Of a DNA stretch of 64,000 nucleotides, positions 5,986 through 24,380 are shown piece by piece. This DNA comes from Marinomonas alcarazii (GTDB lineage: Bacteria > Pseudomonadota > Gammaproteobacteria > Pseudomonadales > Marinomonadaceae), in assembly GCF_003208215.1 (NCBI RefSeq), contig NZ_QKLW01000001.1, forward strand, positions 310,001 to 374,000. The letters are read 5' to 3'. The notes beneath the pieces are model-generated. The model was not told the DNA's origin. It saw only the letters and a list, made by a program, of their open reading frames with translations, and made no database searches. Positions within the stretch are counted from its first letter, which is position 1. Each line of letters starts with the position of its first letter. A program made the translations under genes and the position numbers.

Positions 5986-7152
5986 ATGGATATTTCTCAT
6001 TTATTGACTTCTCACTCACGAAATATGGAAGCCTCTTTGGTTCGTGAGCTGCTGCATTATAGTCAACAGCCGGATATTTTATCTTTGGCTGGTGGTTTAC
6101 CTGATGAGAATGTAATGCCTGCTTACCCTAGGTTAGAACTCTTAACCGACAGCCGACAATATGGCCCAAGTGAAGGTGAAAAAGACCTGCGAGAATGTAT
6201 TGTATCTATTGTGGCTGGGCGAGGTATTGAAACCTCGACGGATAACGTGCTCGTGACCAACGGCTCGCAGCAAGGTTTGGATATCGTCAGCCGTTTAATT
6301 TTAGATGAAAACTCGACTATTTTAACTGAGCAGCCAACGTACCTTGCTGCTTGTCAGGTGTTTAAATTACAAGGTGCAAACATACAAGATGTCGTGTCGG
6401 ATAAAGAGGGTATGTCTGTTTCTGCTTTACGCGATGCGATTGAAAAGTATCATCCTAAAGCGGTGTATTTGATTCCTAATTTTCAGAATCCAGCTGGGCA
6501 ATGTTATAGTTTAGAGCGTCGACGCGAGATCGCAGCCTTGCTTGATGAGAAAAATATACTGCTCATTGAAGATGATCCTTACCGTGATCTTTGTTATGAC
6601 AATGTTGACCTAACGCCAATTTCAACGCTAATAAAGCAAGCGCCATGGCTTTATATGGGGAGTTTTTCGAAGGTTTTATGGCCGGGGTTGCGTACTGGTT
6701 ACATCGTTTCCTGTGATGCATTTTCTCCCTATTTAGTGAAAGTAAAACAAGCCGTCGATCTTCATACTAACCGTCTTTCTCAGAGTATGATTACCCAGTT
6801 CTTCAAGTCTGGACAATATCCGGATCATGTTATCCAGCTCCAAAAAGCTTATAAAGAAAAGCGTGACGTGATGGCTGACGCTTTGAATACACAGCTTGGC
6901 GATCTTGTTGAATTTTCACTTCCTGCTGGCGGAATGTTCTTTTGGGTGAAATTGCCTGAAGGTGTTTCATCGCAACGAGTACTGACTGAGGCATTAAAAG
7001 GTAAGGTGTTGGTTCTTCCTGGAACACCCTTTTTTCCGTGTAATAGTCCACTTGATGACTCGTTTCTAAGACTGAGCTTTGCCCGTGTTTCACCAGAGCA
7101 AATTCATCAAGCGATTGCGGTGCTTGCGAAAGTTGTTAGACAACTTTCCTAG
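5986..7152 (+). CDS. PLP-dependent aminotransferase, class I/II (2-aminoadipate aminotransferase type)
   Basis: A 388-residue fold-type I aminotransferase. The Schiff-base lysine is K229 in YMGSFSKVLWPGLRTGY. Other conserved parts are LAGGLPDE (near 34-41), the PNFQNPAGQ strand (near 164-172), the PLP-binding DDPYRDL (196-202) and a C-terminal arginine in LRLSFARV. The opening and the FSK motif place it with LysN/MocR-type enzymes, without the DNA-binding domain of MocR regulators. The amino donor is not predictable. GAGGCG ahead of ATG 5986 supports the start. No operon partner is evident. Confidence 0.85.
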   Translation: MDISHLLTSHSRNMEASLVRELLHYSQQPDILSLAGGLPDENVMPAYPRLELLTDSRQYGPSEGEKDLRECIVSIVAGRGIETSTDNVLVTNGSQQGLDIVSRLILDENSTILTEQPTYLAACQVFKLQGANIQDVVSDKEGMSVSALRDAIEKYHPKAVYLIPNFQNPAGQCYSLERRREIAALLDEKNILLIEDDPYRDLCYDNVDLTPISTLIKQAPWLYMGSFSKVLWPGLRTGYIVSCDAFSPYLVKVKQAVDLHTNRLSQSMITQFFKSGQYPDHVIQLQKAYKEKRDVMADALNTQLGDLVEFSLPAGGMFFWVKLPEGVSSQRVLTEALKGKVLVLPGTPFFPCNSPLDDSFLRLSFARVSPEQIHQAIAVLAKVVRQLS

Positions 7153-20278: not shown

Positions 20279-21400
20279 ATGTCGAATTCTAAACAAGCAG
20301 TACCTGATACGCTGCCGCTATTGCGCGATCGTATTGATTCTATTGACTCGCAAATACAGATGTTGATCAATGAGCGCGCACGCTGTGCTCAGAAAGTAGC
20401 GGAAGTAAAACTGGCTGAGCAAGGTGATGAGTCTGTTGTGTTTTACCGTCCTGAACGTGAGGCGCAAGTTTTACGCAGAGTGATGGAGCGCAATGAAGGG
20501 CCTTTGGGTAATGAGGAAATGGCGAAGATATTTCGTCAGGTTATGTCTTCATGTCTTGCACTTGAGAAGCCAATGCGAATTGCTTTCTTAGGTCCTGAAG
20601 GTACTTTTACTCAGCAGGCAGCGCTAAAGCATTTTGGTAAATCAATTATTAGTGCGCCTATGGCGGCTATTGATGAGGTGTTTCGTGAGGTTGAATCTGG
20701 GGCGGCTAATTATGGTGTTGTGCCAGTTGAGAATTCGACAGAAGGTGTTGTTAATCATACCTTAGACAGTTTTCGTGACTCACGTCTTAAGATATGTGGC
20801 GAAGTGGAAGAGCGAATTCACCACCACTTGTTAGTAAGCCCAAATGTAAATGCGGATGATGTCACGCATATTTACTCTCATCAGCAATCTTTGGCGCAAT
20901 GTCGTGCCTGGCTGGATCGCTATTGGCCGCATGTAGAGCGTGTTGCTGTAAGTTCAAATGCGGAAGCGGCGCGTTTGGCGGCGGAGGCTGGCCGTAGTGG
21001 TCGAGCCATTGCTGCAATAGCGGGTGAAGTGGCTTGCGAACTTTATGGTCTGCTGAAAGTGTCTGCCAATATTGAGGATCGTCCGGATAATACGACGCGA
21101 TTTTTGATTGTGGGGAATGAAGATGTGCCACCAAGTGGAAAGGATAAGACATCATTATTGATCAGTGCGAAAAACGAGCCCGGTGCTTTGTATCGATTGC
21201 TTGAGGCTTTTGAGCGACATGGGGTTGATATGACTCGCTTGGAGACACGCCCATCACTTATGAGCCGTTGGGGATATATTTTCTATATAGACTTCGTTGG
21301 ACATCATTTGGATGAAGGCTGTAGCGCAGTCATTGAAGAGTTGCGTGAACGTGCGTCAGAAGTGAAAGTGTTGGGGTCATACCCAGTTGCTGTGCTTTAG
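20279..21400 (+). CDS. pheA: bifunctional chorismate mutase / prephenate dehydratase
   Basis: A 373-residue P-protein. The AroQ mutase covers about 1-95 (LRDRIDSIDSQIQMLINERA), prephenate dehydratase about 96-275 (IAFLGPEGTFTQQAALKHFG; ENSTEGVVNHTLD) and an ACT domain about 285-370 with GALYRLLEAFERHGVDMTRLETRPS, the phenylalanine-binding motif. It converts chorismate to phenylpyruvate with feedback inhibition. The hisC-type aminotransferase that often follows in pseudomonads is missing; the next gene is tyrA/aroA after 24 bases. Confidence 0.97.
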   Translation: MSNSKQAVPDTLPLLRDRIDSIDSQIQMLINERARCAQKVAEVKLAEQGDESVVFYRPEREAQVLRRVMERNEGPLGNEEMAKIFRQVMSSCLALEKPMRIAFLGPEGTFTQQAALKHFGKSIISAPMAAIDEVFREVESGAANYGVVPVENSTEGVVNHTLDSFRDSRLKICGEVEERIHHHLLVSPNVNADDVTHIYSHQQSLAQCRAWLDRYWPHVERVAVSSNAEAARLAAEAGRSGRAIAAIAGEVACELYGLLKVSANIEDRPDNTTRFLIVGNEDVPPSGKDKTSLLISAKNEPGALYRLLEAFERHGVDMTRLETRPSLMSRWGYIFYIDFVGHHLDEGCSAVIEELRERASEVKVLGSYPVAVL

Positions 21401-21424
21401 CAAATTGATTAAGAGTGTTGTGCT

Positions 21425-23677
21425 TTGACTGGTGAAAGTGAATTTCAGGTGCTCGCGAATGTGACGCCGCAAGAAAATAAGAAGTTTGGCAATGTCATGA
21501 TTATCGGTCTTGGCATGATAGGTGGTTCTTTTGCTAAGGCGCTTAAAGATCGAGGATTGGCAACACTTTATGGTGTCGATCGTCGAGAGGGCGAGCTCGC
21601 GTTAGGGGTCTCGACTGGTGTTATTGATTATCCAGCAGAGCTTTCACAAGAGTATGTCTCAAAAATGGATGTTATTGTTCTTGCAACACCGGTAAGAGCA
21701 ATGGAATCCGTATTGGCTGACCTTAAGCCATTGCTACAAGAAAAAACGCTTGTTACTGATGTGGGTTCGACAAAGGGAAGTGTTGTTGAATCTGTGCGCC
21801 GTGTATTTGGTTTTGTTCCTGCTAATTTTATCCCTGGTCATCCTATTGCGGGTGCGGAAAAAAGTGGTGTTTTGGCTTCGAATCCGCAGCTGTTTGAAAA
21901 GCATATGGCGATTGTCACGCCTTTGCCTGATAGTGACCCCTTGTTATTGGATCGCTTGCACCGAATTTGGCGTGCGGTTGGTGCGGATGTGGTGAGTATG
22001 GATGTTGATCATCATGATCATGTCTTGGCCTCGTCCAGTCATTTGCCACATTTGTTGGCATTTACCTTGGTGGATGCACTGGCAAGCGGTGAGCGTAGCC
22101 AAGATATATTCAAATTTGCGGCTGGTGGCTTCCGTGACTTTACTCGTATTGCATCAAGTGACCCTGTGATGTGGCGAGATGTTTTTATGGCGAATAAAGA
22201 TGCCACGTTAGCTACATTGGATCACTTTACAGATCGTCTGGCTGATATGCGTGCTGCAATTGAGCAAGGTGATGGGGCGAGCATGTTCGGTGTTTTTACC
22301 CGAGCAAAGTCTGCGCGAGATCATTTTCTTCGTCTGCTGGAGTTGCGTACAATAGGTTCAGCAAAAGAGGTGCGCCCTGTTTCTGTCTCTGTATTGCCAG
22401 CTTCTACCATAAAAGGGAAGATTTCTTTGTTGGGTGACAAATCTTTGTCACATAAAGTCATTACTATAGCGGCGCTTTCCGTCGGTGTGAGTGAGATCAA
22501 GAACATTGATTTAACAGGTGATGTACGCATTACAATGCAAGCTTTCCGTGATATGGGGGTTGTTATTGAAGAGGCCTCAGCGGATTGTGTGCGTATCCAT
22601 GGCGTGGGCTTGTATGGTTTAAAAGCGCCAATTGCGCCAATCAATGTGCACGAGTCGCGAGAGAGTTTGTATTTGTTGTTGCCAGTTTTAGCTGGTCAGT
22701 CTTTCTCAGTAACGGTTGTTGCTGAAGGTAAATTGCTTAATCAATCTATGAGTGATTTATTTTCTTTGCTGCGTCAGATGGGTGGATCGGTAGTCTCTGA
22801 ACTGGCTGATTGTTTGCCTGTTACCTTGTCGCCAAATGATTCTTTAAATGTAAATGTAGATGTTGAATTGAAAACAGGGTCTGGGAACCTTTTGATGGCA
22901 GCATTTTTGTCTGCTATTTATTCCCCTGATGAAGGGCGAGTGAAGCCTATGTTGCCTGGCTTATCTCACTGTGAAGTTTTATTGCAGCGCTTTGGCCAGA
23001 ATATGACCAAGCATGGAGACAGTTTTAATTTTTCTCCTGGGTCTTTAGTTGGTACGGATATTGTATTGTCTGGTGATGAATATGAGGCCGTATGGCTTGT
23101 GCTGTTGGCAAGTTTGCTACCAGGCTCTGATTTGATGATCGAAAATGCAGGGTTAGACTCTGTTTCTTTTGATTTCTTGTCGTTTTTAAAATCTATTGGT
23201 GCAAATGTGGTTATACCACCATTGGCTGAATCTGGCCTTTATGAGGGTGTTTTGCAGGCAGGTTTTGCAGAATTATCATCGTTTGTATTATCGGCTGGGC
23301 AGGCCTACCAATTTAGAGATGAGCTACCTTTGCTTTGTGTGGTGGCAGCGTACGCGAAAGGTGACAGTCGAGTAGAGGGTGTGGGTGACCTACCTTATTA
23401 CTATGAAGATAGAGTGTTGGCTTTGGTGGATGCGTTGGATTCTATGAAAATCTCCTGTACATACGAGCACGGTGATCTATTGATCAAGGGTGGTTTTCCT
23501 CAGGGTGGTGAATTGGACTGCGCTGGTGATGATAGATTAGCGCTTGCCATGCTTGGCTTGGGAGCGCGTAGTAAATCCATAACAAAAGTAAATGATTGTC
23601 AAAAATTATTAGAAGAATTTAATGAGTTGGAGAGTGTCGCATTGCAATTAGGTTTTCATTGCTCTGTGGCGCAATAG
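21425..23677 (+). CDS. tyrA/aroA: TyrA-AroA fusion: prephenate dehydrogenase with a degenerate EPSP synthase domain
   Basis: A 750-residue fusion. The N-terminal half (about 20-300) looks active: [15 protein letters not shown] binds [12 protein letters not shown] and [12 protein letters not shown] carry conserved catalytic residues, and [10 protein letters not shown] follows. The C-terminal half (about 318-750) is an EPSP synthase fold with [10 protein letters not shown], but by alignment to E. coli numbering it has R27 to K344, G96 to R412, T97 to E413, R100 to Y416, R124 to Q440, Q171 to N488, E341 to Y660 and H385 to D703. K339, S340, D632 and R663 remain. I infer that the AroA half cannot catalyse. 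The start is TTG 21425 with AAGAGTG ahead; ATG 21497 is too internal. cmk follows after 19 bases. Confidence 0.88.
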
Positions 23678-23696
23678 TTTTTTAAGAGGAATAGTT

Positions 23697-24380
23697 ATGA
23701 TCAACCAAGGCCCAGTTATTACGATTGATGGTCCAAGTGGTGCCGGTAAAGGTACTGTAAGTCAATTGATCGCGGAAAAGCTGGGATGGCACATACTTGA
23801 TAGTGGTGCCTTATATAGATTACTTGCACTTGCTGTCTCCCATCATGGAATGTCTCCTGATGATGTGGAGACGTTAAAAGTCTTGGCTGAGCATCTGGAT
23901 ATACAGTTTCAACAGACCGAAGAAGGTAAAGTTGAGATTATTCTCGAAGGAGAGGTGGTTACTCAAGCTATTCGAACAGAAGAGGTTGGTAATTGTGCTT
24001 CTAAATTAGCGGCAATTCCTGAAGTTCGTGAAGGTTTGTTGTTGCGTCAGCGTGCTTTTTCGCAGGCCCCTGGTCTTGTTGCTGATGGTCGGGATATGGG
24101 AACAGTGGTGTTTCCTTCCGCCCAGATTAAAATATTTTTAACGGCTTCTGCAGAAGAGCGAGCGCAAAGACGTGCGCAGCAATTGCAGCAAAAAGGTGAA
24201 GCTGTTAATCTAGCTGAACTTGTTAAAACGATTAAAGAGCGTGATGAGCGGGATGCGAACAGAGCAATTGCTCCTCTTGTGCCTGCAGCAGGCGCTTTAG
24301 TTATAGATAGTACGAATTTGACCATAGAGCAGGTTGTCGAGATGGTTTTTGCCGAAACGGTAAAAGCGGGTCTTGTATAA
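23697..24380 (+). CDS. cmk: cytidylate kinase
   Basis: A 227-residue (d)CMP kinase. The P-loop is [14 protein letters not shown] (10-23); [12 protein letters not shown] and [13 protein letters not shown] are the nucleotide-binding family motifs, and the lid includes [10 protein letters not shown]. It phosphorylates CMP and dCMP. It lies between tyrA/aroA and rpsA, the standard order in gammaproteobacteria, and likely belongs to the serC operon. Confidence 0.97.

Follow-up and report, generated by a model that had tools for sequence, protein, structure and literature searches.

A fused EPSPS domain that has given up catalysis is described in Pseudomonas syringae, whose TyrA carries a truncated remnant of AroF (EPSPS) of about 200 residues (Song et al. 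2005, PMC1173090); that paper puts the remnant at the N-terminus in one passage and at the C-terminus in another, the catalysis of the EPSPS half is given up together with the gain of a separate EPSPS gene, and the authors consider that the remnant might become a regulatory domain. A second fused shikimate-pathway domain, the DHQase domain of Aro1 in Candida albicans, has been inactivated by active-site substitutions, and Dqd1 can supply the reaction (PMC9074039). In the latter report, the inactivity was measured, the dead domain mediates the Aro1 homodimer, and two species named as being without a separate enzyme have an active DHQase domain.

The TyrA-AroA fusion analyzed here lies in a stretch of 64,000 nucleotides from Marinomonas alcarazii (hereafter, the window). 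The Marinomonas and P. syringae systems share the same TyrA-EPSPS fusion, with catalysis given up, in Marinomonas presumably, alongside the gain of a separate EPSPS gene. However, the P. syringae remnant is truncated and is a case of one species, whereas the Marinomonas half is full length, predicted to be folded, under purifying selection and found genus-wide; further cases occur here in other families, and the separate gene of Marinomonas is of the E. coli type. The word Marinomonas has 0 occurrences in PMC1173090, and no description of a dead EPSPS half in this genus turned up in searches of the open-licence PMC literature. Candida Aro1 resembles the Marinomonas half in that a fused shikimate domain is dead and the reaction comes from a separate enzyme, although it concerns another enzyme step in another kingdom, and the inactivity of the Marinomonas half is one that we infer from its sequence. 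Aro1 is the best worked parallel.

The fusion gene and the residues of its EPSPS half

The features of the locus are as follows.
20279..21400, + strand: presumed pheA-like gene, upstream of the fusion, by translation and gene order
21425..23677, + strand: TyrA-AroA fusion gene, a 750-aa open frame with a TTG start as listed, the true start being uncertain
21476..22330, + strand: TyrA (prephenate dehydrogenase) half, PF02153, the only strong match in the genome
22400..23608, + strand: EPSP-synthase-like half without an active site, PF00275 match, predicted EPSPS fold, dN/dS about 0.09
23697..24380, + strand: presumed cmk, 19 bases downstream of the fusion stop

The names of the pheA-like gene and cmk are assumed from their translations (for pheA, also from gene order), and on the same footing we take the gene order to be gyrA, serC, pheA, tyrA-aroA, cmk, rpsA; relatives were searched by tblastn with pheA and cmk. 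The Pfam domains of the fusion protein follow one another as PDH_N, PDH_C and EPSP_synthase (residues 326-728), and the nearest named fused gene, that of M. foliarum, is 92% identical. The fused TyrA is the single strong one in the genome by PF02153 search, the second match being partial (27.8 bits). As a minor observation on the start, L039 and L062 carry stop codons near 6001, close upstream of the TyrA Rossmann motif (in L039 directly before it), so the fused protein may in truth begin downstream of the listed start throughout the genus.

Against NF011381, the NCBIfam model for bifunctional TyrA/EPSP synthase, the fusion protein scores 907 bits (cut-off 902), with both domains in one frame. 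Its TIGR01356 aroA score is 149.9 bits, below the curated cut-off of 287.25, and the PF00275 score of the fused half is 131.7-133.6 bits (cut-off 22.8), with homology across the whole domain; the separate AroA of the same genome reaches 483.8 bits with PF00275. The half thus belongs to the EPSP_synthase fold family (PF00275) by homology, and has the EPSPS fold by prediction only. Architecture and ancestry are common to the window fusion, the NF011381 family and the Acinetobacter EPSPS (5bs5/5buf), which is the nearest solved structure by sequence. Unlike what the family name implies, the window protein fails the residues expected for EPSPS activity, and the second activity named by NF011381 is very probably absent from it.

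The PF00275 match at 22400-23608 falls where the preliminary description had placed an AroA half that has lost most of its active site, so that the coordinates proved correct, and alignment with E. coli AroA, taken from its RefSeq record, bears out all eight substitutions named there: R27K, G96R, T97E, R100Y, R124Q, Q171N, E341Y and H385D. The residues that we take to bind S3P and PEP or to act in catalysis, as well as their assumed roles, were located on this alignment. It adds K340Y as a ninth loss, which had not been listed, and confirms the survival of K22, S23, D313 and R344; S169 and R386 are also kept. The half further differs from E. coli at 101, 170, 197, 200, 336 and 411, which may partly reflect the fused-type EPSPS class, since intact relatives differ from E. 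coli at these positions as well. An alignment artefact is ruled out by 18 rows that represent other families of the order, either as fused halves or as an AroA in the corresponding place, and that align with an intact site: 18/18 keep K22, S23, R27, G96, T97, R100, R124 and S169, and likewise Q171, D313, K340, E341, R344, H385 and R386.

In Marinomonas, by comparison with these 18 rows, R100, K340, E341 and H385 are missing from all 35 halves aligned residue by residue, out of 48 in the genus and with the window included, whereas R344 is kept in 35/35, K22 in 33/35, S23 in 30/35, D313 in 15/35 and R386 in 9/35. The fused half combines homology with the loss of catalytic residues and is, as judged by its residues, a pseudoenzyme. 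That an unusual residue set still gives it EPSP synthase activity is scarcely conceivable: the predicted EPSPS fold and the presence of K22, D313, R344 and R386 in the window could be cited for such activity, but R100, K340, E341 and H385 are gone throughout the aligned halves, D313 persists in fewer than half of them, and a complete EPSPS is encoded elsewhere in the genome.

The separate AroA and the fate of fused halves across the order

This complete enzyme is the separate aroA that the preliminary description had predicted, found at G000:C2:53424-54650 and carrying the E. coli residue at each of the 21 positions inspected, so the absence of a second aroA is ruled out. The genome holds three EPSPS-family genes, namely the separate AroA, the fused half and a third that we take from its translation to be MurA-like. 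Of the 48 Marinomonas genomes searched, 46 have a whole separate AroA; in G011 (L122) the gene is split by a frame break in a draft genome, and in G067, a 77% complete genome, none was found. The MurA-like gene, for its part, has no match in G032 although that genome is 99% complete, probably through an assembly gap. In the tree, the separate AroA groups with those of related families and of E. coli.

The order was sampled with 215 genomes, 10 of them Marinomonas. Outside Marinomonas, 36 genomes have, among the matches listed, an EPSPS match with E < 1e-131, whose score was read as that of the E. coli type. The search for weak fused halves covered 19 genomes with three hits, the 36 that have a strong separate AroA, and 26 genomes of the same family. 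Eleven of the 36 carry, among the matches listed, a fused half detectable with PF00275, either intact-scoring (380-393 bits in G041, G100, G138 and G201) or weaker (194-306 bits in G208, G092, G145, G082, G220, G238 and G245). In six others, all of family f43, TyrA extends to 607-647 residues. TyrA stands alone, at 296-358 aa, in 18 of the 35 genomes of the order that have both a strong separate AroA and a TyrA match, and was not found in one of the 36.

The f43 extension (L174-L179), which the PF00275 search did not report, is a shrunken EPSPS half of about 310 residues with most of one lobe gone. The possibility that it is an unrelated domain was rejected, as hhalign gives 99.1-99.5% to intact, Marinomonas and decayed halves, against 0.3% for a TyrA control; toward the separate AroAs it gives 93.8% over 210 columns. 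The extension evolves fast, with dN of 0.7-1.05 between members and dS mostly saturated. Among the weaker halves, those of f6 g44 have lost K22 and G96 (K22R, G96A), with H385P in two of three, and those of f36 g36 carry R344P and H385L; both groups retain many residues and may still be active. Most of the active site is lost in G245, and G96A also occurs in the otherwise intact G201.

Where a strong separate AroA is lacking, all 22 fused halves that were examined (9 + 13, two f43 members included) score at least 380 bits. Four genomes (G073, G213, G229 and G232) have halves of 387-405 bits beside another, weaker extra EPSPS-family gene. Decay thus goes with the presence of a separate E. coli-type AroA. 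On the TyrA tree, a minimum of four changes between decayed and intact is needed when the lost rows are left out, and a single decayed clade is rejected (AU p 0.009; 26 decayed versus 19 intact rows), in a test where the 18 lost rows were not counted among the others, the deep forks are weak and several branches are long. On the strength of these sequences, the pattern is genus-wide in Marinomonas, with parallel decay in other families. In L134 and L138 (family f45), an E. coli-type aroA lies directly behind a stand-alone tyrA, as if replacing the old gene in place.

One order thus holds a natural series, from the live fused enzyme through loss of the pocket, a scrambled pocket and a shrunken remnant to clean deletion, so that what becomes of a redundant fused domain can be tested directly. 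The results also suggest that Marinomonas proteins are wrongly labelled "bifunctional prephenate dehydrogenase/EPSP synthase", which bears on pathway models and on surveys of the glyphosate target in which EPSPS domains are counted.

Constraint, predicted fold and released pocket

The fused half stands in one open frame, 731-772 aa long, in all 48 Marinomonas genomes. Its substitution rates were estimated by the method of Nei and Gojobori and are rough, since many pairs have a dS close to 1 or higher; over 18 pairs with dS < 1.5, the half has a median dN/dS of 0.103 and TyrA one of 0.032. Across 13 close pairs, some of which share a genome, the half gives 0.049-0.119 with bootstrap upper limits of at most 0.173, and it aligns without a gap in 12 of them; TyrA gives 0.003-0.064 in the 12 close pairs in which its dS is unsaturated, and the separate AroA gives 0.017-0.082 in close pairs. 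Pooled over 10 pairs sharing no genome, dN/dS is 0.029 for TyrA and 0.086 [0.076-0.097] for the half, which at the protein level evolves about three times faster than TyrA. By block, the pooled values are 0.042 for residues 326-430, 0.115 for 431-545, 0.094 for 546-690 and 0.070 for the C block, so that one part of the half stands out.
22400..22714, + strand: residues 326-430 at the N-terminus of the dead half, its most constrained part (dN/dS 0.042 versus 0.029 for TyrA)

An AlphaFold model, for which the input was 31 Marinomonas sequences only, has pLDDT of at least 84 in 38 of the 44 ten-residue blocks from residue 301 on, and EPSP synthases make up all of its ten best PDB matches, with TM values of 0.85-0.90 by target length; the model is poor in the helical part of TyrA. 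The open frame throughout the genus, the low dN/dS and the predicted EPSPS fold argue that the fused half is not junk. Neutral decay, in which the half would be a passenger pending loss, could call on the other lineages with a separate AroA that have lost the half or reduced it to the f43 remnant. Yet dN/dS is about 0.09, its upper limits stay well short of 1, close pairs align almost without gaps and the frame is open in every genome, all of which makes such a passenger very improbable.

The constraint does not extend to the substrate pocket in the same way. In the 17 substrate-site columns, nearly invariant in 18 relatives, the commonest residue of a column reaches on average a frequency of 0.57 in Marinomonas versus 0.71 in random sets of equally invariant columns, and only 0.5% of draws are as low. 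The ancestral pocket residue is kept at 0.30 versus 0.40 in other invariant columns, a difference that is not significant (15% of draws). Replacement sets differ between groups within Marinomonas: in a by-eye group of 16 window-like sequences, R96, D385 and E411 do not vary and position 386 is either R or K.

The cleft might accordingly have been turned to another ligand or another reaction, for example as an allosteric sensor of a shikimate-pathway compound. Such a reading can point to R344 and K22, kept in all and in nearly all of the aligned halves, to the constant residues of the window-like sequences, and to 13 new fixed residues at positions nearly invariant in relatives. We nevertheless hold it to be improbable: the other groups carry different pocket sets, the pocket is more variable than comparable sites, which speaks against one shared new ligand, and K22 has an explanation at the level of nucleic acid, given below.

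The conserved dyad and the proposed role of the half

Codon identity in the fused gene peaks at residues 331-350 (z 3.9) and at residues 726-740 (z 3.6), and each peak holds a candidate nucleic-acid element.
22434..22451, + strand: perfect 8+8 dyad GTGACAAA-TC-TTTGTCAC, inside the codons of G-D-K22-S23-L-S-H, putative operator or RNA hairpin
23596..23644, + strand: 3' stretch of synonymous conservation, holding TTGTCA-16-TTTAAT (10/12), a candidate cmk-rpsA promoter

Of 35 Marinomonas sequences, 29 have a perfect inner 6+6 dyad, whereas synonymous resampling expects 1.64, a comparison in which the counts overstate the evidence because the sequences are related by descent and not independent; among relatives it is perfect in one of 27 (L107), a 28th being without the motif. 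The exact 8+8 dyad occurs in 25 of 47 Marinomonas genomes, at one place each, and by coordinates each of the 25 places falls within the fused half, close to its 5' end. In four sequences a C-G pair has changed to T-A on both sides of the dyad, and the two K22Q halves (L079 and L091) are those with the weakest dyad. In a folding of 36 bases the dyad gives an RNA hairpin with z -2.7, its inner stem being kept in 30 to 35 of 35 per pair; an outer stem around it was discarded as poorly conserved, each pair being present in 17 to 34 of 35. No known RNA family matched up to E 1 in 21300-23900. Membership in a large regulon is not supported, as the genome has one perfect site, and sites with at most one mismatch number six versus three for the reversed control. 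At the 3' end, the promoter-like pair scores 9 or 10 of 12 in 19 of 35 Marinomonas sequences, and a stricter promoter scan of the region gave four sites versus a shuffle mean of 5.8, the 3' candidate not among them.

The preliminary description had counted K22 and S23 among surviving catalytic residues. Their survival stands, but its cause may lie in the conserved dyad: the codons for K22 and S23 are part of it, so the survival of these residues need not mean catalysis. It could further be supposed that the half is kept mainly for nucleic-acid reasons, that is, for the dyad at 22434-22451, the candidate cmk-rpsA promoter (about 23596-23623) and avoidance of the polarity that a long untranslated gap ahead of cmk-rpsA would bring. 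The two codon-identity peaks, the excess of the 6+6 dyad over expectation with the exact form in about half of the genomes, and the closeness of cmk to the fusion stop are in agreement with this supposition, which leaves unexplained the low dN/dS elsewhere (residues 431-690) and the intact predicted fold; besides, cmk still lies behind tyrA in 14 of the 17 loci of relatives examined in which the half is lost. As a main cause of retention, we regard nucleic-acid function as quite unlikely.

The reading that we find reasonably probable, though well short of assured, is that the AroA half is a non-catalytic EPSPS domain, a pseudoenzyme, retained for TyrA folding, oligomer assembly or effector response. 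The suggestion in the preliminary description that the half is a pseudo-enzyme, perhaps kept as a structural or regulatory partner of TyrA, agrees with both the residue losses and the purifying selection. In the proposed course of events, a lineage gains or keeps a separate E. coli-type AroA, whereupon catalytic selection on the fused half would end and its pocket could change freely; the half, by then presumably devoid of EPSPS activity, would stay in Marinomonas because the working form of TyrA came to depend on the folded domain, which most likely aids folding, oligomer assembly or the response to an effector. The N-terminal 105 or so residues (326-430) may be the most important part. Since relatives have a stand-alone TyrA, TyrA needs no half by nature, and its presumed dependence in Marinomonas would be acquired and not basic.

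Evidence against such a partner role includes the 18 of 35 strong-AroA genomes in which TyrA stands alone and the four in which an intact-scoring half persists beside a separate AroA. The faster evolution of the half would also weigh against a partner of TyrA, as would the conserved K22, S23 and R344 together with the pocket sets particular to sub-clades, which are also explicable by a ligand. Finally, we mention as a tentative and rather doubtful idea that the half has been reused twice, its protein to scaffold or regulate TyrA, and its DNA, where it encodes the former substrate-phosphate loop (K22-S23), as a genus-specific operator or RNA hairpin controlling tyrA-cmk-rpsA; if this were true, the "surviving" catalytic lysine would be kept by nucleic acid and not by catalysis.
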